Under the pieces are notes generated by a model, which worked only from the letters and a program-made list of their open reading frames with translations, was not told the origin of the DNA and did not search any database. A stretch of 33,597 nt of DNA from a virus: IMG/VR virus record IMGVR_UViG_3300038701_001546, positions 1 through 33,597 of that record; one strand, given 5' to 3'. Shown piece by piece: positions 6,239 to 24,724 of this stretch. Within the stretch, counting starts at the first letter, position 1. Each line of letters opens with the position of its first letter. A program made the position numbers and the translations under genes.

Positions 6239-7833
6239 AACCACGCTACTACCAGATTGAAGCGTCCGAAGCTACACAGGCCGAGTGGGCGAAGGGCAAT
6301 CGGAAGACACTCATCGTCATGCCGACCGGCACCGGTAAGACTATCACGTTCTCAGCCATTATTCAGGACCGCGTGCGGATGGGGGAGCGCTGTCTGATTC
6401 TTGCCCATCGCCAAGAACTACTCGATCAAGCAGCAAAGAAGCTGGGTGGGATGACCGGGCTTGGCTGCGCAGTCGAGAAGGCAGAGTCTACCTGCATTAA
6501 CGACTTCTTTCGCGTGGTCGTCGGTAGTGTCCAAACGATGATGCGCGAGAAGCGGCTGGCGACGTTTCCGCGAGACTTCTTCGACACGATCATCGTCGAC
6601 GAAGCACACCACGTCCTGGCCGATTCGTACCAGCGCATCCTTGCTCACTTCGAGAACGCCAACATTCTCGGTGTGACCGCGACGCCCGACCGCGGGGACA
6701 TGCGCGAGCTTGGTGAGTTCTTCGACTCAATGGCTTACGAATACTCGCTTCCGAAGGCGATCAAGGAAGGCTTCCTCTGCCCCATCAAGGCGCTTACCAT
6801 CCCGATCACACTGGACCTGACCGGAGTGAGCGTACGCGGCGGCGACTACCGTGCCGAGGAAGTCGGCAACGCGCTCGATCCGTACCTTCACCAGATTGCC
6901 GATGAGATGGTCGAGCATTGCCGGGGGCGGCGCTCCGTGGTATTCCTCCCTCTCATTGCGACGAGTCAGAAGTTCTGCGAGATTCTGCGCGAGAAGGGCA
7001 TCCGGGCTGCTGAGGTCAATGGGCAATCCACTGACCGAACCGAAATACTCGCTGACTTCGAGCGCGGCGCCTACGATGTGCTCTGCAATTCAATGTTGCT
7101 AACCGAGGGGTGGGACTGCCCACCCGTGGACTGCATCGTGTGTCTGCGTCCGACGAAGATTCGCAGCCTCTATTGCCAGATTGTCGGGCGGGGTACTCGA
7201 ATCCACGATGGCAAAGACCACCTCCTCCTGCTCGACTTTCTGTGGCTCTCGGCAAAGCATGAGCTCTGCCGGCCCGCTCACCTGCTGGCGTACGACGACA
7301 AGATCGCCGACAAGATGACTGAGCAGATCATTGCGGCTGGTTGCCCTGTGGACCTTGAGGAGGCCGAGCAGCAAGCCGAGGGCGACAGTATCGCCGAACG
7401 GGAGGAAGCACTGCGCAAGCGCCTCGCCGAGCAGCGCAACAAGAAGCGCAAGTTGGTGGATCCGCTGCAGTACGAGATGAGCATCCATTCCATGGACCTC
7501 TCCGACTACGAGCCGTCGTTCGGGTGGGAGGCCAAGCCCCCGACCGAGCAGCAGGTGAAGCAGCTAGAGACGGCTGGCATCCTCGCCGACGAGCTCGATG
7601 CAGGCAAAGCCGAACGACTACTAACGACGATTGACCGGCGCCGCTCGAGTGGACTGAGCACTCCGAAGCAAATTCGCTTCCTGGAGAGGAAAGGCTTTCG
7701 CGACGTTGGGACTTGGGGATTCAGTGACGCAAGAAAACTCATCGACCGAATCGCCGGCAACAACTGGCGAATCCCGGGCGACATCAATCCAGCAAAGTAT
7801 CAGCCGAAACAACAGGAGAAAATCAGCGCATGA
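6235..7833 (+). CDS. SF2 DEAH-type DNA helicase
   Basis: A 532-residue superfamily 2 helicase or translocase in the phage replication/recombination operon. Visible motifs are Q-like RYYQIEA near 4-10, Walker A TGTGKT (31-36), LAHRQEL (57-63), DEAH (122-125), motif III TAT (148-150) and motif VI QIVGRGTR (314-321). The C-terminal 180 residues are helical and charged, with STPKQIRFLERKG resembling a small accessory domain found at the ends of phage helicases. It overlaps neighbours at both ends by 4 bp. The family is certain; the substrate (branch migration or origin opening) is not. Confidence 0.92.
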   Translation: MKPRYYQIEASEATQAEWAKGNRKTLIVMPTGTGKTITFSAIIQDRVRMGERCLILAHRQELLDQAAKKLGGMTGLGCAVEKAESTCINDFFRVVVGSVQTMMREKRLATFPRDFFDTIIVDEAHHVLADSYQRILAHFENANILGVTATPDRGDMRELGEFFDSMAYEYSLPKAIKEGFLCPIKALTIPITLDLTGVSVRGGDYRAEEVGNALDPYLHQIADEMVEHCRGRRSVVFLPLIATSQKFCEILREKGIRAAEVNGQSTDRTEILADFERGAYDVLCNSMLLTEGWDCPPVDCIVCLRPTKIRSLYCQIVGRGTRIHDGKDHLLLLDFLWLSAKHELCRPAHLLAYDDKIADKMTEQIIAAGCPVDLEEAEQQAEGDSIAEREEALRKRLAEQRNKKRKLVDPLQYEMSIHSMDLSDYEPSFGWEAKPPTEQQVKQLETAGILADELDAGKAERLLTTIDRRRSSGLSTPKQIRFLERKGFRDVGTWGFSDARKLIDRIAGNNWRIPGDINPAKYQPKQQEKISA

Positions 7834-8633
7834 GTGACGCCATCGACCCCCGCGTGCTCGCCTACGAGGTGAACGGGCTTAGGGTGCGGGAGAACAAAGC
7901 GCCCGGCGGCGTGCCGTTCTACACGGTATGGCGCAGGTCCGACAACACCTACCTAAATGTTCATGGTGAAGTAACCGACGAGTGGATCAGCTTCCCCACC
8001 TTCGACGCCGCCCTGACCGCGCTGTTGCGCTACGCGGATCGCGTGCTGCCGGAGGGCGCGCTGCGGGTGGTGCCATCGCTTTCGTGGCCGGGTGATTGGA
8101 TTGTGCGAAATAACGAAGCTAGCAAAATGCTTCATTCGGATGGTGTTATTAGGGATGCCAAGGATATAAGCGGGGGGTGGCGCTGGCCCACCCCCGCCGC
8201 CGCGCTGCTTGCGCTGATCGAGCACGAGGAGGCGGAACACGAGCACAATAGCGCGCGACCGTTTCCGCCGGAGGCCAGTGAGCAGCCCGACCCACAGCCG
8301 CGCTGGGAGGTGATGCAAAAAGACGCGCGCTGGTTTGTCACAGATACGAATGGTAACTACCTTTGCTGCGACCGGTCTGTGACCACAATCCCAAACGAAT
8401 GGTACGAGGAATGGCTTGCGAGAGCGGCTGCCCGCTACGCCAACGCCGAAGGTCCGCACCCGCCGAGGCCGGAGGTGTGGACGCTAAAGGAGGATCCGCC
8501 CCATTCGTGGGACGTTCTATGTCGTGGCGAGATAGCGGTTTCATTCTGGGATGATGGGCTGGGTGGCAAGGCGGAAGAGCACGCCGCCGCGTGGATGGAA
8601 GCCAAGCGCGCAGGAGGGCGGGGCGATGAGTAG
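7830..8633 (+). CDS. Hypothetical protein built of about four divergent repeats
   Basis: A 267-residue acidic protein, Trp-rich, with no recognised family. Four segments look like diverged copies of one unit: W..V/F strand, a short charged loop with an N or D, another W, then an Ala-rich helix. Examples are FPTFDAALTALLRY (about 52-65), PTPAAALLALIEHEE (122-136), NEWYEEWLARAAARY (188-202) and AEEHAAAWMEAKRA (248-261). It starts in an ATGA overlap with the helicase and closes the replication block. The repeats suggest a scaffold or binding role, which is inference only. Confidence 0.7.
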   Translation: MSDAIDPRVLAYEVNGLRVRENKAPGGVPFYTVWRRSDNTYLNVHGEVTDEWISFPTFDAALTALLRYADRVLPEGALRVVPSLSWPGDWIVRNNEASKMLHSDGVIRDAKDISGGWRWPTPAAALLALIEHEEAEHEHNSARPFPPEASEQPDPQPRWEVMQKDARWFVTDTNGNYLCCDRSVTTIPNEWYEEWLARAAARYANAEGPHPPRPEVWTLKEDPPHSWDVLCRGEIAVSFWDDGLGGKAEEHAAAWMEAKRAGGRGDE

Positions 8634-8844
8634 CGAAACTAACCAAACCGAATCCGAACGGCTGGCGCGGGCGATGAATAGGGTCTGGGATAGCGAATGG
8701 TGCCAGTGGGTCGTGCTTTGCAATTGGCACACCATCCCAGACGACGACGCCTTCCCCGACCTCTTCCCCGACTCGGCGCGATACTGTTCGCGATGCGCGT
8801 GGCGTGGCCGAAGCTGCTTGCCAAGCGTGAATACATCAGCCTAG
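8626..8844 (+). CDS. Small zinc-binding-like protein
   Basis: A 72-residue protein starting in an 8-bp overlap (ATGAGTAG) with the preceding gene and preceded by GGAGGGCGGGG. Cys32-x2-His35 and Cys54-x2-Cys57 form a plausible zinc site around an acidic DDDAFPDLFPD loop. It is the first gene of the accessory small-gene block. Function unknown. Confidence 0.6.
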   Translation: MSSETNQTESERLARAMNRVWDSEWCQWVVLCNWHTIPDDDAFPDLFPDSARYCSRCAWRGRSCLPSVNTSA

Positions 8845-8885
8845 AGCAATCTGTCTGTTATCCAGTGAATATCACTACCTGCACG

Positions 8886-8972
8886 ATGACACAGGTTGAA
8901 ATTGAGGCTATGCCCCCCGCCGAAGCCATCAACCACGCGCTCGCGGCGGTGGTGCTGAACATAGGAGAATAG
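8886..8972 (+). CDS. Very small ORF, possible truncated phage domain
   Basis: 28 codons beginning MTQVEIEAMPPAEAINHALA. The opening resembles the first helix of phage ABA-sandwich-type small proteins (MTxEEIEAMPxGxELDxLVA), as if only the N-terminus remains. No clear ribosome site precedes it. A longer in-frame form could start at the ATG at 8793, overlapping the previous gene by 52 bp. Treat as uncertain; it may be a fossil. Confidence 0.3.
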   Translation: MTQVEIEAMPPAEAINHALAAVVLNIGE

Positions 8973-8974
8973 AA

Positions 8975-9178
8975 ATGGACATGGGAAACGGGAAGTTTGG
9001 AGAAGTACCGCAGCATATACAAGACGCCTTCAATGAAATGCGAGACGAGGGTAGTCTGCTGCGCGTATTCAAAATCGGTGAAGAATTGGAAATCCGTGGA
9101 TCTAAATTCAAGGTGGAGGCTATCTACGAAGATGGTCGTATGACACTGCGCCTGCAAAAGCGGGCATTAGGGGTGTAG
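8975..9178 (+). CDS. Hypothetical phage protein
   Basis: A 67-residue protein with GGAG upstream. The layout, a DMGNGKFGEVP opening followed by LRVFKIGEELEIRGSKFKVE and a basic end, recalls a family of small phage proteins with a short beta-barrel-like core (IGEELEIRGSKFKVEAI). No function is known. Four bases separate it from the next gene. Confidence 0.65.
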   Translation: MDMGNGKFGEVPQHIQDAFNEMRDEGSLLRVFKIGEELEIRGSKFKVEAIYEDGRMTLRLQKRALGV

Positions 9179-9181
9179 GGG

Positions 9182-9373
9182 ATGAGCGTCAAAAACATTA
9201 TCGATTGCCCTAGCTGCGAGGGTTTGTTGTCGGGCATAGACAAGATTATTGATTGCGATATCTGTAGTCAGGAAATTTGCGCCGGGTGCTCGGTGCAGTA
9301 CCTCGATATGACCGTGTGTCGTTTCTGCGCTGAGGATGAAGACCAGAGAGCTATGGAGAGCTATCAACTATGA
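9182..9373 (+). CDS. Small protein with four CxxC pairs (zinc cross-brace-like)
   Basis: A 63-residue protein with eight cysteines as four CxxC pairs: 9/12, 25/28, 33/36 and 46/49. This spacing suits two zinc ions in a RING- or treble-clef-like fold. The C-terminus is acidic. Its stop overlaps the next start (ATGA). Small phage zinc proteins often contact host polymerase or nucleases, but no partner is evident here. Confidence 0.65.
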   Translation: MSVKNIIDCPSCEGLLSGIDKIIDCDICSQEICAGCSVQYLDMTVCRFCAEDEDQRAMESYQL

Positions 9374-9789
9374 CCACCGACCACCTAACCGCCCGCCTGC
9401 GCGACGGGCAGGAACTCAGCGACGGACAACGACAGCAACTAAACGAGCGCATCGCGCGGGTGCTGGACCCGGAGAACAGACGCGGGTGGTTTCGGCGCTC
9501 TTGCTCGGTGTGTCAAGCACCATTACCCGAACAAGCAACCCCGTGTTACGGCGACAAGCCATACATGGATTACATCGGCCCCGACTTCCTCTCGCCCACG
9601 GACGGCGAGGCGCAGCGGATGATGCGGGAGTGGTTGGAGAGTCGAAATTGCTCTATGAAGAGATACCCCGGCTGGACGATTATTTCTACACAACAGAATC
9701 TTCCCAACAACTTTAACTGGACAAATATTGCCAAACACCATTGCCACTCCACCGCCCTCGCGCTGGCCGTGCTGAGGGTCGGGGGATGA
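9370..9789 (+). CDS. Hypothetical protein, ABA-sandwich-like
   Basis: A 139-residue protein. The opening LTARLRDGQELSDGQRQQLN is helical. A CSVC..C segment follows (about 45-58), then a region reading like the phage ABA-sandwich domain: DFLSPTDGEAQRMMREWLE, a strand, and HHCHSTALALAVLRV at the end. Proteins of this type are common in phage accessory blocks without assigned role. Both ends are in ATGA overlaps. Confidence 0.6.
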   Translation: MTTDHLTARLRDGQELSDGQRQQLNERIARVLDPENRRGWFRRSCSVCQAPLPEQATPCYGDKPYMDYIGPDFLSPTDGEAQRMMREWLESRNCSMKRYPGWTIISTQQNLPNNFNWTNIAKHHCHSTALALAVLRVGG

Positions 9790-10018: not shown

Positions 10019-10635
10019 ATGACCGTAAAAGAGATTTGTAAAATTATGCCCGCAGCAGATGGGTGGCGAGTGCTACCTAACGGCCACCGCGTGACGCTCG
10101 GCGACGGCGTGACGCTCGGCGACGATGTGACGCTCGGCGACGACGTGAGGATCGGCGACTACGTGACGCTCGGCGACCGCGTGAGGATCGGCGACTACGT
10201 GACGCTCGGCAACGACGTGACGCTCGGCGACTACGTGAGGATCGAGGCGCTTAATGTAGGGCGCATTCTCGCAATCCAGTCTGCCTGTACACCACTGCGC
10301 TTTTGGAAATGGGTGAACCACGCGATCTTAGCGCCTACGGTGGCTATCAGTATCAATTGGGAGCGTTTCATGAGTCTGATGGTGATGTGTCGGATGTGCA
10401 ATGCGCCGCCGGTCTGCACGTCTGCGACGTGGGCGTGATGTACGAGCATATGGGCTTGGGCACACCGGATCAGCACAGCAAGATCCCGTTACTGGTCGAA
10501 GTACAGCCGGAGGATATTTTATACGCGCCAATGCCGGGGACGGGCGGGAAATGGAGGGTGCGGCGGCTGCAAGTGTTGGATTATGCGTGGTCTAGTGATA
10601 AACCGCCCGGGGCGGAAGGAGAGAACAATGACTAA
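10019..10635 (+). pseudogene. Hexapeptide-repeat (left-handed beta-helix) protein, frameshifted
   Basis: The ATG at 10019 opens a protein with nine hexapeptides of the form V-T/R-L/I-G-D-x (residues about 25-77), the signature of a left-handed beta helix. The frame stays open to 10438, but the natural-looking C-terminal domain is one base out, in the frame ending at 10635 (EPRDLSAYGGYQYQLGAFHE, CAAGLHVCD, PLLVEVQPEDILYAP, WRVRRLQVLDY). One extra T in the TTTT run at 10301-10304 would join the halves as TPLRFLEMGEPRD. No start with a good ribosome site serves the second half. Either the gene is broken or the run was miscalled. Function unknown; it may be a beta-helix binding protein. Confidence 0.7.
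10091..10249 (+). repeat. 18-bp coding tandem repeat (beta-helix codons)
   Basis: Eight full 18-bp units from 10091 to 10234 plus a partial ninth, consensus GTGACGCTCGGCGACGAC. Some units carry GTGAGGATCGGC. Each unit encodes one hexapeptide coil turn, so copy number can change by slippage without breaking the frame. Confidence 0.9.
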
Positions 10636-12639: not shown

Positions 12640-12838
12640 GTGGAGAATCTGGAATGGTGAATACGAGAAACACCCGTGCAAGGTACGTGACGGAAACGGA
12701 TACATCTACGCATGGCCGAATGCCGGCCTTATGATGGCTATGGATAAGAGTGGGCGATATTGGCAACCAAGCGACAATATCGAGGTGCAAGACGCTTCGA
12801 TGGGTGAGTGGATGGAGGCATTGCGCCATGGCCGATGA
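12629..12838 (+). CDS. Hypothetical protein
   Basis: A 69-residue Trp-rich protein (five Trp) with GGGAGG before its ATG. Segments DEWRIWNGEYEKHPCKV and KSGRYWQPSDNIEV suggest a small beta-barrel. It ends in the same sequence context as the previous gene (a TTGCGCC-ATG junction overlapping the next start). No family recognised. Confidence 0.6.
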   Translation: MTDEWRIWNGEYEKHPCKVRDGNGYIYAWPNAGLMMAMDKSGRYWQPSDNIEVQDASMGEWMEALRHGR

Positions 12839-13103
12839 GCAGCAGCGCAAAAAAAAAGGGAGGGCTATCACGATGCACGGGTTAGAGCAACAATATGGGG
12901 TGACGATAGACCGGAGATACCACAGGAATATCCTATTCGCCTGCGAGACCTTAGAAGACTTCATGTATGACAACTACGATTTCAAGATCCAAGATGTCGG
13001 TTTGGAAATGCGCTGGGGTGAGTTTGTAGCCGCGCTGGCATACATTCGGCACTGTGCGAGGGTCAAGATGGAAGAGACTGAGAATGCGAGGAATGATGAC
13101 TGA
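12828..13103 (+). CDS. Hypothetical protein with poly-A tract near its start
   Basis: A 91-residue protein. The ATG at 12828 has GGAGG 9 bp upstream. After seven codons a run of nine A (12849-12857) encodes three Lys. A second in-frame ATG at 12873 has GGGAGGG at good spacing and would give a form lacking the basic leader. The body is helical (YHRNILFACETLEDFMYDNY, FVAALAYIRHCARVKMEET). Slippage on the A9 run could also switch frames. Function unknown. Confidence 0.6.
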   Translation: MADEQQRKKKGRAITMHGLEQQYGVTIDRRYHRNILFACETLEDFMYDNYDFKIQDVGLEMRWGEFVAALAYIRHCARVKMEETENARNDD

Positions 13104-13152
13104 ACAGCAGCGGTGCGGGCGGTGCCCGTGCTGGAAGGAGAAGATCGAATGA
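13093..13152 (+). CDS. Micro-ORF with CxxC-C motif
   Basis: A 19-residue ORF (MMTEQQRCGRCPCWKEKIE) overlapping the previous stop by 11 bp and ending in an ATGA overlap with the next gene. Three cysteines in CGRCPC could bind a metal. It has no strong ribosome site, so it may only couple translation or be chance. Confidence 0.25.
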   Translation: MMTEQQRCGRCPCWKEKIE

Positions 13153-13289
13153 GTGAACAAGAGGCCGCAATGCAGGGCTACAGCGTCCGCCGCGTGCGTC
13201 TCGAGGTGGTGGAGGATGGCGTGCTTAGGCCTGGACATCTGATGATGCTCGCGGGGCCGTCGAAGGCGTTCGAAGAGAAAAGCGAATGA
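13149..13289 (+). CDS. Hypothetical small protein upstream of primase-helicase
   Basis: A 46-residue protein with GGAAGGAG at good spacing. It holds a strand-rich SVRRVRLEVVEDGV and a hydrophobic LMMLAGPSKAF. The start and stop both overlap neighbours by 4 bp (ATGA), supporting translation. The end GPSKAF happens to resemble the Walker A start of the next protein but is too short to be a domain. Confidence 0.55.
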   Translation: MSEQEAAMQGYSVRRVRLEVVEDGVLRPGHLMMLAGPSKAFEEKSE

Positions 13290-15667
13290 CATCGGCCGAA
13301 CTACTCAACCACATCGACCCGTCAACCCTCGACTACCAAGAATGGGTCAACGTCGGTATGGCACTCCACCACGAAGGCGCGACCGCCGAAGAGTGGGACG
13401 CATGGAGCCAGCGGGACACGAAGAGGTACAAACCCGGCGACTGTGCTCGCAAGTGGTCCAGCTTTCACGGTTCGTCGAAACCGGTCACGGGCGGTACGCT
13501 CGTCGAACTGGCAAAGCGCAGCGGGTGGAAGCCTGAGCGCCGGCAGACAGGCCCAGGCCGCGCGCTCGACTGGGGGGACACGATTGGCGGGGACGATTAT
13601 CAGGTAGTCGACACGGCGTGGGTGGAGGATTCCGAGGTACACGCCATTGAGAACACTCCCGACTGGCGACAGCTACAGATGTACCTTGAAGCGCTGTTCG
13701 AGGCGTCTGACCACGTGGGCTACGTCTGCGAGGCGTGGCAGCAGGATGAACGGTGGCTACCCAAGAAGGGGATCTGGACCCGCACGGCCGGCGAACTCAT
13801 TGCCGAACTCTCGAAGTACAAGGACATCGGCGAGGCGATGGGCGACCACAACCCTGATGTCGGGGCATGGATTCGTTTCAATCCGCTCGATGGGCAAGGC
13901 ATCAAGGACGCGAACGTCACGGGCTTCCGATACGCGCTTATCGAGTCCGACACGCTCAGCGTCGAGAAACAGGCGTCTGTCTACGCCGAGCTCGAACTAC
14001 CGATAGCCGCGCTCGTTCACTCGGGCGGGAAGTCATTACACGCCATCGTCCGCATCGGCGCAACCTCGAAGGAGGAGTACCGCGAGCGCGTCAACTTCCT
14101 GCACAAAGTCTGCGAATCGAATGGGCTTGCCATCGACACGCAGAACAAGAACCCTTCTCGACTGTCCCGAATGCCTGGCGTCACGCGCAATGGGCAGCAG
14201 CAGGCTCTTGTTGGGCTGAGTCAAGGTAAGGCCAGCTTCGAGGAGTGGCGCGAGTGGATAGAAGAACTGAATGACAGCCTCCCTGACATTGAATGCTTGG
14301 CAGATATATGGGAGGATCTCCCCCCGCTTGCTCCTCCGTTGATTGATGGCGTACTTAGGATGGGGCATAAAATGCTTCTCGCTGGACCGTCGAAGGCAGG
14401 GAAGTCCTATCTCCTGCTTCAACTTGCTATGGCTATCGCCGAGGGGCGCGAGTGGCTCAATTGGCAATGCACCCAAGGGAAAGTGCTCTATGTGAATCTT
14501 GAGCTTGACCGCCCATCGTGTCTGCATCGTCTGAAATCGCTGTATCATGCGAAGAGATGGGAGCCTGCTAACAGGGGGAGTATCGACATTTGGAACTTGC
14601 GTGGCAAGGCGCTCCCCTTAGACAAGCTAGCCCCGAAACTGATACGACGAGTAAAGAGCAGCAACCTTTCCGCCGTCATCATTGACCCGACCTACAAGGT
14701 CATCACGGGCGACGAGAACGCCGCCGACAAGATGGCATTCTTCTGCAACCAGTTCGATAGGATCTGCGATGAGTTGGGCGCATCCGTCATCTACTGTCAC
14801 CACCATAGCAAGGGCAATCAAGGCCAGAAGGCTTCCCGCGACCGCTCGTCAGGGTCGGGTGTGTTTGCTCGCGATCCGGACGCTATCATAGATATCATCG
14901 AGTTAAACCTTGAGCAGTCACACAAGGCCGTGCTCGACAATCGCTACGTCTGCCCGGTCGTCAGCCGCTTCATGGACGAGCACAAATCGGGCTGGCAGTC
15001 AGCCATCGGCCAAGACGACGCCATCGTAGCGGCGAAGTTCATCGAAGCAGCACGCGCCATGCTCGACGACAAGCACAAGAAGGATCTTCAACAAAGGATA
15101 GATGAGGCTCGCTATCATATCTTGAAGTTTAGCGGCTGGCGGCTCGAAGGCACGCTCCGGGAGTTCGCTCCGTTCGACGCCTGCAATATGCTGTTCACGT
15201 ACCCCATACACGTCGCCGATACGGACCAGATATTAGCATCGGCCAAGGCAGACGGCGAGGAGACACCCGCCGAGACAGCCATGCGAAAGAAGCGCGAAGC
15301 AGGCCACACGAAGCAGAGTCAGCGAGAGGAACTCATCGCCGCGCATGAAGACCTTGACGACGGTAGCGGCGTCATGGTGGGCGACATGGCCGACGCGATA
15401 GGGGTCACGGTGCGGACCCTCAAGGGGCGTATAGCAAAGACGAAGATGCTCGTTGTCGATGACGCCGGCGTAGTCCGCAACAAGCAGCAGGCAGAACAGC
15501 ACGTCATAGATGAGGCGGTATCAGCCGCGAAGGACTTGCACGGGGCGGTCTCTCTGCTGGCAGTAGCCGAAGCGCTGGAACTCAGCGAGCAGGGTGCCCG
15601 AAAGAAGATACAGCGCGATGGCCGCTATGCCATCAAAGACCGGCATGTGGTGCCAAAGGAGGACTGA
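13286..15667 (+). CDS. Bifunctional primase-helicase (PriCT, primase-polymerase-like, RepA-like AAA ATPase)
   Basis: A 793-residue replication protein. An N-terminal PriCT-type domain (about 1-80: WVNVGMALHHEG, WDAWSQRD, YKPGDCARKW) is followed by a primase-polymerase-like core. The core shows FRYALIESD (about 214-222), the HSGGKSLHAIVRIG block (245-258) and NKNPSRLSRMPGV (288-299). The helicase half has Walker A GPSKAGKS (367-374), Walker B AVIIDPTYK near 464 and VIYCHHHSKG with SSGSGVFARDPDAI as sensor elements. The C-terminal 150 residues hold two HTH-like segments (ADAIGVTVRTLKGRI; AEALELSEQGARKKI). It probably primes and unwinds phage DNA. It sits between the accessory block and the resolvase, in ATGA overlaps. 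Confidence 0.88.
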   Translation: MTSAELLNHIDPSTLDYQEWVNVGMALHHEGATAEEWDAWSQRDTKRYKPGDCARKWSSFHGSSKPVTGGTLVELAKRSGWKPERRQTGPGRALDWGDTIGGDDYQVVDTAWVEDSEVHAIENTPDWRQLQMYLEALFEASDHVGYVCEAWQQDERWLPKKGIWTRTAGELIAELSKYKDIGEAMGDHNPDVGAWIRFNPLDGQGIKDANVTGFRYALIESDTLSVEKQASVYAELELPIAALVHSGGKSLHAIVRIGATSKEEYRERVNFLHKVCESNGLAIDTQNKNPSRLSRMPGVTRNGQQQALVGLSQGKASFEEWREWIEELNDSLPDIECLADIWEDLPPLAPPLIDGVLRMGHKMLLAGPSKAGKSYLLLQLAMAIAEGREWLNWQCTQGKVLYVNLELDRPSCLHRLKSLYHAKRWEPANRGSIDIWNLRGKALPLDKLAPKLIRRVKSSNLSAVIIDPTYKVITGDENAADKMAFFCNQFDRICDELGASVIYCHHHSKGNQGQKASRDRSSGSGVFARDPDAIIDIIELNLEQSHKAVLDNRYVCPVVSRFMDEHKSGWQSAIGQDDAIVAAKFIEAARAMLDDKHKKDLQQRIDEARYHILKFSGWRLEGTLREFAPFDACNMLFTYPIHVADTDQILASAKADGEETPAETAMRKKREAGHTKQSQREELIAAHEDLDDGSGVMVGDMADAIGVTVRTLKGRIAKTKMLVVDDAGVVRNKQQAEQHVIDEAVSAAKDLHGAVSLLAVAEALELSEQGARKKIQRDGRYAIKDRHVVPKED

Positions 15668-16065
15668 TGAGTTTCACCAAGATACAGACCTTTACCGTAA
15701 TCGAGTGCTGCAACTGTGGGATTGCGTTCGGCGTGTCCGACGAATTCGACCAGAGGAAGCGCGAAGACCACAGCTCTTTCTATTGCCCTGCTGGACACAG
15801 CCAACACTACACCGCCAAGAGCGAGAGCGAGAAATTGAAAGAGGAACTTGATTGGGAGCGAAAGAGGCGAGAACGGGCTGAGCAAGCTGCGACCCATGAG
15901 TCGCAGCGCCGACAGAACGCCGAACGCCGTCGAGCCGCTGCAAAGGGACAGGTCACGCGCATTAAGAACCGCATAAGCAAGGGTGTCTGCCCGTGTTGCA
16001 ATCGCACGTTCCAGAATCTCGGCAGGCACATGGCTTCACAGCATCCCGAGTACACCAAGGACTGA
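15667..16065 (+). CDS. Double zinc-finger protein with coiled coil
   Basis: A 132-residue protein. The N-terminal zinc ribbon uses Cys14/Cys17 and Cys40/His44 (ECCNCG, YCPAGH). A long charged coiled coil spans about 52-95. A C2H2 finger closes it: Cys108-x2-Cys111-x9-His121-x4-His126. Proteins of this build sit beside resolvases in several phages and may bind branched or single-stranded DNA. The start overlaps the primase stop by one base (TGATG), and the end overlaps the RusA start. Confidence 0.75.
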   Translation: MSFTKIQTFTVIECCNCGIAFGVSDEFDQRKREDHSSFYCPAGHSQHYTAKSESEKLKEELDWERKRRERAEQAATHESQRRQNAERRRAAAKGQVTRIKNRISKGVCPCCNRTFQNLGRHMASQHPEYTKD

Positions 16066-16448
16066 TGAAATTCTTCCTCCCCATGCACCCGCCGCGCGTC
16101 ACGAAGCAGACCCAAGGGCGCCGCAAGTACAAGACCGATACACTGCGCGAAGCTGAGCAGAAGTTCCGCGCGCATCTCGCACCGCATCGGCCGTCAGCCC
16201 CTCTCGATGGTCCCGTGCGGCTGGTGGTCAAATGGATCTGGTACACGAAGGATAAGCGAAAGTGGGGCACGTATAAGACCACGCGGCCCGATACCGACAA
16301 CCTGCAGAAGATGTTCAAGGACACGATGCAGAAGTGCGGCTACTTCAAAGACGATGCCCGGGTCGCGTCCGAGACTGTTGAGAAGTTCTGGGACGGGACG
16401 CCGGGCATCTGGGTGTACGTTGAGGCTATCGACGAGGATGATAGTTAG
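16065..16448 (+). CDS. RusA-like Holliday junction resolvase
   Basis: A 127-residue endonuclease of the RusA family, which cuts four-way junctions during phage recombination and packaging. Family hallmarks are the conserved acidic block RPDTDNLQKMFKDTM (75-89, with Asp76 and Asp78) and YFKDDARV (93-100, with Asp96 and Asp97), plus the basic N-terminal PPRVTKQTQGRRK. It is normal length. It ends the rightward early transcript and converges with the leftward operon, overlapping it by 4 bp. Confidence 0.88.
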   Translation: MKFFLPMHPPRVTKQTQGRRKYKTDTLREAEQKFRAHLAPHRPSAPLDGPVRLVVKWIWYTKDKRKWGTYKTTRPDTDNLQKMFKDTMQKCGYFKDDARVASETVEKFWDGTPGIWVYVEAIDEDDS

Positions 16449-17256: not shown

Positions 17257-17688
17257 CTAGGCATCTGCAATGCTGCGAAACTCGTCACGGGTCATCGGCC
17301 GCGAGGAACGCTCGAAGCTATTGCCGTCGGTTCGGTAGCCAGAGAAGCGCGGACGGCCGGTATCGGCCTCGTGGTCGTATGGCTCGCCCATCATGAAGCC
17401 TGAGCGGGTGTATTCCAACGGTGGCAGGACACATAGCGCGTCATCGTACTCCTGCTCGGTGATTTCCGACCATGTGATCGGGGTGCGCTGTTCTTCGCCG
17501 CGTTGACGCTGCCATGCTTCGAGACTGACACGAACGGCGTTCTTGTACTCGGGGCTTGATGCGCGAAGTTCTGCCTCGTCCAGCCCGCCGTGCAGGGTCA
17601 ATCCTGTATCGGGGTCGATGAGGTCGACCGCATAGGGCTGGCCGGGGACGATGTAAGCCTCGGTGATAGTGTTAAGGTTGGTGCTCAT
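17257..17688 (-). CDS. Hypothetical protein, DUF1419-like (tentative)
   Basis: A 143-residue protein beginning after GGAGGTGGGAG. It has a strand-rich N-terminus (AYIVPGQPYAVDLIDPDTG), a central acidic helix (TWSEITEQEYDDALCVLPP) and the segment SGFMMGEPYDHEADTGRPRF followed by FERSSRPMTRDEF. The order of ALCVLPPLEY, GFMMGEP and a final RPMTRDEF recalls DUF1419-type proteins of plasmids and phages. The family call is tentative. It overlaps the upstream gene by 4 bp. Confidence 0.6.
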   Translation of the reverse strand: MSTNLNTITEAYIVPGQPYAVDLIDPDTGLTLHGGLDEAELRASSPEYKNAVRVSLEAWQRQRGEEQRTPITWSEITEQEYDDALCVLPPLEYTRSGFMMGEPYDHEADTGRPRFSGYRTDGNSFERSSRPMTRDEFRSIADA

Positions 17689-18266
17689 GCTCCCACCTCC
17701 CCGAGCAGATCGGCGACGGTGCATTCCTTCTCGCCGATGTCTACGCTCGCGCCGGTGCGCTGGTCGATGATGGCGACGATACAGAGATTATCTTGGTCGC
17801 ACTCGTTGGTGGAGAGATTAAGCGCCTCTTGCCAGTCCATGCCGGTCTGCTCGTCGTCGAAGCGCTGGCCGTTGTCCTCGTAGTAGCCGATGATTCGGAA
17901 GCTGGGGGCGGCGGGCGGCTGGGTGTCGAGGGCGGCGCGGGCAGTTTCGCGAGGGCAGAAGCCCGGCCCGTGGTCGCAGGGTTCATCAGCGATGCACCGC
18001 AACGCTTCCCGCATCGCCTCAATCTCGGCGGCGGGGTCGGACATGCCCGCGCAGGCGTTGACGCAATCCACGATGCGACGGGCGTGGGCAATTGCCTCTG
18101 CTTCGCCATCGTCAACTTGATGCCCGAACACCTGCGCAATCGCTGTGGTGATGTCCTTGCCGCACTCATAGATATAGATGTCCCTAGCCCATGAGGGTTT
18201 TTGCAGTTTCCACGGCGTCGCCGTGTGCTGGGGTGGGGTTTCGGGTATACTCGTCTTGTGACTCAT
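17685..18266 (-). CDS. Hypothetical protein, first gene of leftward operon
   Basis: A 193-residue protein starting after AGAGGAGA. HTATPWK (15-21), EAIAHARRIVDCVNACAGM (about 57-75) and a helical EIEAMREALRCIADEPCDHG resemble a common phage family with an N-terminal TPW motif and a central A-x-A-RRIVxCVNACAG helix. A second half (FRIIGYYEDNGQRFDDEQ) adds a beta-rich domain. It is transcribed from the near-consensus promoter at 18362-18390. Biochemical role unknown. Confidence 0.65.
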   Translation of the reverse strand: MSHKTSIPETPPQHTATPWKLQKPSWARDIYIYECGKDITTAIAQVFGHQVDDGEAEAIAHARRIVDCVNACAGMSDPAAEIEAMREALRCIADEPCDHGPGFCPRETARAALDTQPPAAPSFRIIGYYEDNGQRFDDEQTGMDWQEALNLSTNECDQDNLCIVAIIDQRTGASVDIGEKECTVADLLGEVGA

Positions 18267-18291
18267 GGCAGGTCTCCTCTGCTGGGTCTCA

Positions 18292-18322
18292 GGCCCGCTT
18301 CGGTCTCATCACCGGGCGGGCC
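18292..18322 (-). other. 7-bp inverted repeat in leader
   Basis: GGCCCGC (18292-18298) and GCGGGCC (18316-18322) can pair across a 17-base loop within the leftward leader, close to the ribosome site. It could hide or expose the start of the first gene. No known riboswitch class was recognised. Confidence 0.4.
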
Positions 18323-18331
18323 GCTTCAATT

Positions 18332-18358
18332 TGTAGATGGGCGCTTGCCTCATCTACA
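18332..18358 (-). promoter_or_regulatory. Perfect inverted repeat at leftward transcript start (operator or leader hairpin)
   Basis: TGTAGATG (18332-18339) and CATCTACA (18351-18358) form a perfect 8-bp inverted repeat with an 11-bp spacer, beginning just downstream of the expected start of the leftward transcript. It may be an operator for an operon regulator, such as the RHH protein, or a 5' RNA hairpin. Confidence 0.55.
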
Positions 18359-18361
18359 GAC

Positions 18362-18390
18362 ACTATAGCACAAAGTAGACTTGGTGTCAA
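18362..18390 (-). promoter_or_regulatory. Near-consensus sigma70 promoter for leftward operon
   Basis: On the minus strand TTGACA (18385-18390) and TATAGT (18362-18367) are separated by exactly 17 bp. Only one base differs from the consensus pair. It drives the five leftward genes and is likely strong in the host unless repressed. CTACTT appears both just before and inside the spacer, as in a tandem operator. Confidence 0.8.
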
Positions 18391-18661
18391 GTAGAAATAT
18401 GCACTAATTTTGAGGGGTACTAAGTCTAGCAGTGATAGCAGTATCCGAACTCGTGAAACTTTGAAACTAAACCAGTTTTTACCCGGAAAGTTTCAAGGTT
18501 TCAAAGGTGCTCGGCTCGGAGGTCGGTAGAGGGTAGGTTTTAAAGGTTAGTTTCACTCTAAGTATCGAGAAATAAAGGGGTTACGAGGGTTTGAAACCGT
18601 GAAACTAAACGCGCTTTTTCGGGTTAGTTTCAAAGTACTAGACGCATGGTACTTAGTAGAC

Positions 18662-18696
18662 AGTCAGAAGTTGTTTGGTTTCAGGTACTTCTGACT
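18662..18696. repeat. Perfect 10-bp inverted repeat
   Basis: AGTCAGAAGT (18662-18671) and ACTTCTGACT (18687-18696) flank a 15-base loop containing one GTTTCA. It lies in the middle of the array and could be a cruciform or a second-factor site. Confidence 0.7.
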
Positions 18697-18720
18697 TTGA
18701 AACTTTGAAACTTTCTCGCG

Positions 18721-18737
18721 TCCCTACTACGTAGGGA
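18721..18737. repeat. 7-bp inverted repeat TCCCTAC-TAC-GTAGGGA
   Basis: A compact palindrome-like hairpin with a 3-base loop, at the right side of the motif array. It could be a protein site or a transcript hairpin; there is no U-tract. Confidence 0.55.
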
Positions 18738-18776
18738 TGACTCAAGTTTGTTTCACTCTCTCACGTGTGAAAGTCG

Positions 18777-18827
18777 GTGAGGGCGAAGCCCCCCTCACTC
18801 TCCCCCGCTGACCGCTTCGCTAGCGGG
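18777..18827. other. Two adjacent GC hairpins
   Basis: GTGAGGG/CCCTCAC (18777-18783 with 18792-18798) and CCCGCT/AGCGGG (18804-18809 with 18822-18827) can form successive stems. Neither has a T-run, so intrinsic termination is doubtful; they may insulate the array from the late promoter. Confidence 0.4.
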
Positions 18828-18900
18828 TAGAGAGTTCCCGACGTTCACAAGCTCCAAGAGTACCCCAGCCCCAGAGATTAAAACCCTTGAGGACGAAATA

Positions 18901-18959
18901 TCAGGCGTCTAACAATCTCAGGCGTAGGGGTTGACAGGGTAGGCGAGGTCGGAGATAAT
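18901..18959 (+). promoter_or_regulatory. Rightward late-region promoter with upstream direct repeats
   Basis: TTGACA (18931-18936) and GATAAT (18954-18959) are 17 bp apart. TCAGGCGT is repeated at 18901-18908 and 18918-18925, right upstream of the -35, as would suit an activator. It points at the terminase/lysis genes. Confidence 0.65.
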
Positions 18960-19003
18960 CCCGACTCGGCAGGTAAGGATTAAACATGACCGAGTAGGTC
19001 GGG
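18960..19003 (+). other. Inverted repeat spanning the late transcript start, with a three-codon ORF
   Basis: CCCGACTCGG and CCGA-gtag-GTCGGG pair as a 10-bp stem with a 4-base bulge around a 20-base loop. The loop holds AAGGAT and an ATG that opens the mini-ORF MTE, ending at TAG in the stem. Because the start point is near 18966, the outer stem would act as a DNA operator rather than RNA. Confidence 0.35.
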
Positions 19004-19015
19004 ATTGAGGATGGC

Positions 19016-19297
19016 TTGGCAGGTCCGTTGAAAAGAATTACTCCGATTCGACGGGCAATCGTGCGGCTGCGCGTTTTAGGACTGTCAGCCTCGGCAATCG
19101 CCCGAGAACTCGGCCTCACCTCGATCACCGTCGAGCGAGCGCTACAGCGGCCCGAGGTCGTGGCACACCTGGCATACCTCCTCGACCGGCTCGACGACGA
19201 AGTCATCAACGCTCTCGTCTACAGCTCCATCGCTGACGGTGTAGGAGCGCAGAAGCCCGGTAAACGGCGATATCGAAAGCGTCGACTCACAGAATGA
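19016..19297 (+). CDS. HTH protein, small-terminase-like
   Basis: A 93-residue basic protein starting at a TTG with GAGG just upstream; no ATG is available. RAIVRLRVLGLSASAIAREL and GLTSITVERALQRPEVVAHL (about 13-53) are an HTH like those of small terminase subunits and phBC6A51-type proteins. It resembles the HTH of the protein at 20071-20532, so the two look paralogous. A basic tail (KPGKRRYRKRR) follows. It may recognise packaging sites or be a regulator of the late genes. Confidence 0.6.
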   Translation: MAGPLKRITPIRRAIVRLRVLGLSASAIARELGLTSITVERALQRPEVVAHLAYLLDRLDDEVINALVYSSIADGVGAQKPGKRRYRKRRLTE

Positions 19298-19329
19298 CTC
19301 ACACTTTCGGAGCTTCGGAGCCGTAACCC

Positions 19330-19398
19330 CTTGCGCGCCAGTGGTAGAGCACCTGATTCTTGACCAGATGACCGAGGGTCGAAGCTGCGCGATGCAAG
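19330..19398 (+). other. Degenerate tRNA-like sequence
   Basis: CTTGC at 19330 pairs with GCAAG at 19394. Between them are AGTGGTAGAGCA (D-loop-like), an anticodon arm with loop TTCTTGA (anticodon CTT, Lys-like) and GGTCGAAG in the T-loop position. The D-stem does not pair, the anticodon stem has mismatches and the total is short at 69 bases. A decayed or chimeric tRNA fits best; it is unlikely to be functional. Confidence 0.3.
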
Positions 19399-19423
19399 CA
19401 CCGCAGCGATCTCCTGATGTAGC

Positions 19424-24702: not shown

Positions 24703-24724
24703 TTTCGCGTTCATGGGAAACGGA

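Follow-up and report, generated by a model that had tools for sequence, protein, structure and literature searches.

A TGAAAC iteron array as the probable replication origin of a temperate-looking phage, with its InversePrim-type primase-helicase as the proposed initiator

The window analyzed here, a 33.6-kb IMG/VR fragment of a temperate-looking phage (record IMGVR_UViG_3300038701_001546, 33,597 nucleotides), carries a dense array of TGAAAC/GTTTCA hexamers with two short hairpins at its right end. Judged from its sequence, the segment 18454–18798 is very probably the replication origin of this phage, and the repeats are probably read by the winged helices at the C-terminal end of the phage's own primase-helicase. 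This view builds on the array, its enrichment, the layout kept in related phages, and the co-variation of the repeats with one part of the primase, together with a predicted winged-helix fold; from these we infer how binding, loading, the point of opening, and priming might proceed. The first-pass annotation of this DNA had offered two alternatives for the array, replication iterons and cooperative operators, of which the former is now strongly supported and the latter is not.

All 12 hexamers of that annotation, in about 300 bp of non-coding DNA, were found where it had placed them, on the plus strand at 18454, 18462, 18592, 18600, 18698, and 18706 and on the minus strand at 18490, 18498, 18550, 18627, 18678, and 18750. 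The four pairs with an exact spacing of 8 bp are all same-strand pairs (Table 1), far above random placement: at least four same-strand pairs with one shared spacing (6–30 bp) arose in 16 of 16,154 random placements of 12 sites (0.1%). As to the annotation's proposed comparison with the rest of the sequence and with shuffles, the hexamer is enriched in the array but not across the rest of the window. Its 26 copies in the entire window compare with 13.5 expected, and 0 of 100 shuffles had as many; 12 of the 26 fall within the array, and the remainder of the window is close to the chance rate. Within the array region, the commonest hexamer occurs 12 times, compared with 3.5 times in dinucleotide shuffles of the same region, and repeated-hexamer pairs reach z = 19.7 against such shuffles. 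The GC content of the array is 42%, versus 58% for the window. The region lacks a long open reading frame (ORF), and a DNA-level search of phage records with 17600–19400 as the query returned no match. The perfect 10-bp inverted repeat was also recovered as described, and hairpins A and B, located at the right end of the array, had been overlooked.

Table 1. Coordinates of the proposed origin, its proposed initiator, and flanking features in the window.
Feature	Coordinates	Strand	Remarks
InversePrim-type primase-helicase, 793 aa, proposed initiator	13286..15667	+	phrog_2597 E=0; PriCT_2 + AAA_25
RepA-like AAA_25 ATPase domain	14321..14821	+	residues 346-512, E=1.4e-30
Predicted tandem winged helices, proposed iteron reader	15311..15655	+	residues 676-790, AlphaFold2 models
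RusA resolvase	15993..16448	+	PF05866 E=2e-23
Leftward promoter-like site, left of array	18362..18390	-	TTGACA-17-TATAGT
Iteron array, proposed replication origin	18454..18755		12 TGAAAC/GTTTCA hexamers, non-coding, 302 bp
Direct pair 1, TGAAACTTTGAAAC	18454..18467	+	8 bp phase
Direct pair 2, facing pair 1	18490..18503	-	8 bp phase
Direct pair 3, TGAAACCGTGAAAC	18592..18605	+	8 bp phase
Inverted repeat, ACAGTCAGAAGT(15)ACTTCTGACTTT	18660..18698		inner 10 bp perfect, 18662-18671/18687-18696
Direct pair 4, left border of proposed origin core	18698..18711	+	8 bp phase
Hairpin A, CGTCCCTAC(TAC)GTAGGGATG	18719..18739		apex TACTACGTA common to Bacillus phage BCJA1c
Single inverted hexamer	18750..18755	-	across hairpin A, 44 bp from 18706
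Hairpin B, GC-rich	18777..18798		58 bp right of hairpin A
Rightward promoter-like site, right of array	18931..18959	+	TTGACA-17-GATAAT
Small helix-turn-helix protein, encoded by the first gene of the rightward block, rival candidate for binding	19016..19297	+	Sigma70_r4_2 E=5e-7

As a single strand, the core folds better than shuffled sequences (z -3.1), which would also suit transcription terminators or an RNA with a structure of its own, where hairpins would have given rise to the repeats as by-products. We consider this extremely unlikely, as the region has no terminator-like T-run site, the hexamers are mostly arranged in direct pairs away from the hairpins, and no Rfam family matched the array region at the gathering score (best E 0.4).

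The first-pass annotation had recognized no initiator and raised the possibility of a new binding protein. The best candidate is instead the phage's own primase-helicase, encoded 2.8 kb to the left of the array. By its domain order and by motifs read by eye, this protein matches the InversePrim family: a PriCT_2 domain (residues 5–76) precedes the AEP-like motifs ESD (220–222), SLH (250–252), and ID (283–284), followed by the AAA_25 domain, and Pfam gave no DUF927 or D5/SF3 domain. The histidine of AEP motif II corresponds to H252 and is invariant in the five sequences aligned. The InversePrim family has been described from prophages with a PriCT domain ahead of the AEP domain and a RepA-family helicase behind it (PMC5862659). 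That report names the domain PriCT-1 rather than PriCT_2, and the passages found on the family name neither an origin nor a winged helix, both of which are described here. A literature search, which left subscription papers mostly outside, likewise found no origin or winged helix reported for InversePrim phages.

Because the model of the full-length primase was poor (pLDDT, predicted local distance difference test, of 50), we used a model of the C-terminal part alone, in which two winged helices are predicted with a pLDDT of 86. Foldseek searches with this model returned weak matches to tandem winged helices such as those of SelB (E ~2e-3), without a functional pointer. Three relatives (L004, L005, and L007) have a C-terminal extension comparable to that of the window's protein, whereas the Firmicute phages have one winged helix.

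The primase genes of relatives are commonly accompanied by similar arrays. Bacillus phage BCJA1c, the Streptococcus Javan phages, Enterococcus phage EFC-1, and Faecalibacterium phages Lugh and Aster have a non-coding gap of some 200–500 bp after the primase gene; in L004 and L007, the array directly follows the RusA gene, and in the window it also comes after RusA. Repeated hexamers exceeded shuffles in all 19 of the relatives' gaps tested (pair z 2.7–35; coding control -0.8), with identical counts for Javan131 and Javan157; in five gaps the single top hexamer was not significant on its own. The repeat words vary across relatives and include GGGACA, ACGAAA, ACTGCA, AATAGC, TGAAAT, GTTGCC, and GATCC. 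Among 74 IMG/VR loci, the segment beside the primase stop codon ranked in the top 2% for repetitiveness in 66 of 72 (4.8% for random anchors), and it topped its locus for repetitiveness in 59 of 74 (3.0% for random anchors). The strongest array of the set lies 3′ of the primase gene in locus L168, after position 7214, with 20 copies of TGTCAA and 16 of GTGTCA.

This arrangement bears on what else the array could be. As the first-pass annotation had noted, it lies between promoter-like sites for leftward (18390–18362) and rightward (18931–18959) transcription, and the small helix-turn-helix gene comes next, so that a phage regulator such as the product of that gene could bind cooperatively and switch the two divergent promoters. 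We regard such an operator array as unlikely, because no hexamer overlaps either promoter, the nearest being 64 bp from the leftward -35 element and the last 176 bp from the rightward one, and because the array in relatives goes with the primase gene, lying 3′ of primase or RusA inside one-directional operons; moreover, the repeat word follows the primase winged helix (see below). A helix-turn-helix protein encoded just right of the array resembles small terminases, which would fit a packaging (pac) site bound by the small terminase. However, the array stands beside the primase gene in BCJA1c, Lugh, and EFC-1, with other genes between it and terS, and loci found by the motif alone adjoin helicase or primase genes, which makes a pac site very unlikely. 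Direct-repeat arrays also serve as centromeres or copy-control sites, and a plasmid-like prophage could use such an array for partition or incompatibility; given the integrase in the window, the position behind the primase in relatives, and the lack of a ParA/ParB-type gene among the scanned ORFs (a search that was not exhaustive), we find this reading as improbable as the pac site.

If the primase reads the repeats, its reading part should change with the repeat word. In 19 Streptococcus phages, array similarity correlated with the identity of the C-terminal winged helix (Spearman 0.70; partial correlation 0.69, permutation p = 0.0005) compared with 0.17 for the rest of the primase. Scanned along the primase in 18 phages, the correlation stayed between -0.06 and 0.26 as far as residue 660 and was 0.63–0.66 for residues 660–742; for RusA, the next gene, the value was 0.23. 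Primases with a STEDKPVSEKTVRRW-type helix pair with GGGACA-type arrays, and for phage phiKSM96 the word ACGAAA, predicted from its Javan173-like helix, was found in 10 copies. Whether through contact or through joint inheritance, the winged-helix end of the primase and the array form one specificity unit.

What relatives retain is the layout, the sequences being otherwise too divergent for alignment by eye. Most of these regions run from the array through a direct pair, a short palindrome, and a single inverted copy to a GC-rich hairpin. The inverted copy lies 44 bp beyond the last direct one in the window (18706 to 18750) as well as in Javan311, Javan355, and Javan31, and 43 bp beyond it in Javan273; the palindrome corresponding to hairpin A and the GC-rich hairpin B are 58 bp apart in both the window and BCJA1c. 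The palindrome apex ACTACGTA is common to the window, BCJA1c, and two further loci (L109 and L146). The first-pass annotation had proposed comparing related phages for a conserved 8-bp spacing: interval and layout are kept, whereas the hexamer changes and some relatives space their sites at other distances. Since the hexamer changes along with the primase winged helix while interval and layout persist, this is the pattern that a co-evolving origin and initiator would predict.

Searching in the reverse direction, we scanned IMG/VR by motif alone with the pattern TGAAACNNTGAAACN{17,45}GTTTCA and sorted the loci by hexamer density. A RepA-type ATPase gene, detected with a profile derived from the protein family of the window, lay within 1.5 kb in 6 of 16 dense loci versus 0 of 62 sparse ones (Fisher p = 3e-5). 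Pfam and PHROGs identified replication proteins at further dense loci, namely L229 (AAA_25), L234 (primase), and L211 (DUF3854/DUF5906 primase), and the array stands directly 3′ of a helicase or primase gene in L216, L215, L229, L187, and L234. Arrays of TGAAAC itself thus point to replication genes in further phages as well.

Taken as a replication origin, the segment may work as follows. The tandem winged helices of the primase-helicase would bind the TGAAAC iterons and assemble multiple copies of it there. In the core around hairpin A, which direct pair 4 and the inverted hexamer at 18750 enclose, the DNA would open and the RepA-like ATPase would load; the first primers would come from the AEP domain. 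It is a guess that the second winged helix of the window's protein serves the paired sites. More tentatively, and with somewhat less than even confidence, we propose a single origin class for InversePrim phages, in which the winged helix (the last ~80 codons) and the adjacent array are exchanged or evolve as a unit against an unchanging catalytic body and two-hairpin core, and in which the window's branch has added a second winged helix reading paired iterons.

Several points weigh against the origin and its proposed reader. The window's array lies 2.8 kb away from the primase gene rather than adjacent to it, and the fragmentary contig L005, whose primase is 62% identical, contained repeats in coding sequence alone and no array. 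The co-variation was seen in Streptococcus phages rather than in the window's own lineage; in these phages the winged-helix end of the gene adjoins the array, so that joint inheritance could contribute. The linker at residues 660–690 correlates as well (0.63), and a short co-inherited block fits this equally well as direct contact. Many relatives have an AT-rich palindrome, and the window's array is lower in GC than the window as a whole, but hairpin A is not AT-rich, and no unwinding element was identified in the window. The cumulative GC skew, another check proposed by the first-pass annotation, shows no sharp turn in the window and gives no clear origin signal.

The closest known systems are of two types. 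In SaPI Rep and SCCmec Cch2, the C-terminal domain of a helicase that works alongside a primase binds short iterons just downstream of its own gene (PMC7581432). Iterons read by the C-terminal domain of the initiator are thus a known principle, which is also proposed for the window, in a phage family for which the literature search turned up no origin. The Rep/Cch helicases carry DUF927 or Primase_Cterm/D5_N annotations with a separate or fused primase, unlike the window's protein, in which an AAA_25 ATPase lies behind an inverted PriCT-AEP arrangement and which is accompanied by two predicted winged helices and a two-hairpin core. In plasmid pRN1, the origin is a required stem-loop just 3′ of the ORF904 primase-helicase gene, whose shape is conserved though its sequence is not, and its authors propose similar origins for some phages (PMC4234260). 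The likeness consists in an origin 3′ of a gene for a fused AEP primase-helicase with a winged-helix domain; pRN1, however, differs in its SF3 helicase and its single 100-bp stem-loop, with no iteron array described, whereas the window has an iteron array, two shorter hairpins 58 bp apart, and no SF3 domain. The window's system would work in a similar way but falls outside both types, as no DUF927 or D5/SF3 domain was found in it and its ATPase is of the AAA_25 type.

More distant parallels exist among other phages. Lambda O, likewise a phage initiator, binds the iterons of ori-lambda beside the unwinding region, but it is of a different protein family, its iterons are located within its own gene, and the helicase it recruits is that of the host. 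The alpha protein of satellite phage P4 combines primase and helicase with a C-terminal domain for origin binding, and it has short iterons at ori and crr; it belongs to another helicase family and uses two separate cis sites. An origin-like non-coding element has reportedly been described in Streptococcus thermophilus phage Sfi21.

For most phages known from sequence only, origins are unmapped. The present results offer a rule for InversePrim phages, namely that iterons accompanied by a palindrome and a GC-rich hairpin should be sought 3′ of primase or RusA, and they point to the protein segment expected to set the repeat specificity. As many phages combine a common enzyme body with differing winged helices and repeat words, they form a natural series for studying how winged helices choose DNA words. 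In uncharacterized viral DNA, a dense TGAAAC-type array is often a sign of a helicase or primase gene.

In the window, the genes are ordered integrase (26–742), SbcC-like, Sak4, helicase, primase-helicase, RusA, a set of leftward genes, the array, and a set of rightward genes that includes TerL at 24713. The leftward protein encoded at 17685–18266 has relatives that are alike in short stretches alone and lack a TGAAAC array, and TerL as a query found no relative in viral contigs. Directly upstream of the primase gene lie small ORFs (12750–13289), with no Pfam match for 12750–13103.

The motif searches also brought up loci of other kinds. L208, L213, and L185 carry symmetric TGAAAC arrays with triplets ~11 bp apart around facing 8-bp pairs; no replication gene was recognized in the part of their sequence examined. 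An unrelated phage fragment (L047) contains at 8268–9475 a 1.2-kb non-coding region with 8-bp phased TGAAACAC pairs and tandem units TGTTACAG/TGTTGCAG/TGTTTCAG, a real paired array for which no replication gene or initiator was recognized in the part examined. The head-to-head pair pattern gave eight matches in bacterial genomes, which are near-perfect hairpins or a dispersed repeat of one Acidobacteriaceae metagenome-assembled genome and were rejected as arrays. Six contigs of this genome (bog_222; L051, L053, and L055–L058) carry a TGTGAAACTGTGAAACTGTGG palindrome, mostly near an end of the sequence retrieved; this palindrome is a dispersed repeat, perhaps a mobile element. Within the window, an 18-bp coding repeat (CGTGACGCTCGGCGACGA) is present in 8.3 copies at 10090–10238, in the ORF at 10019–10438 for a hexapeptide-repeat protein.
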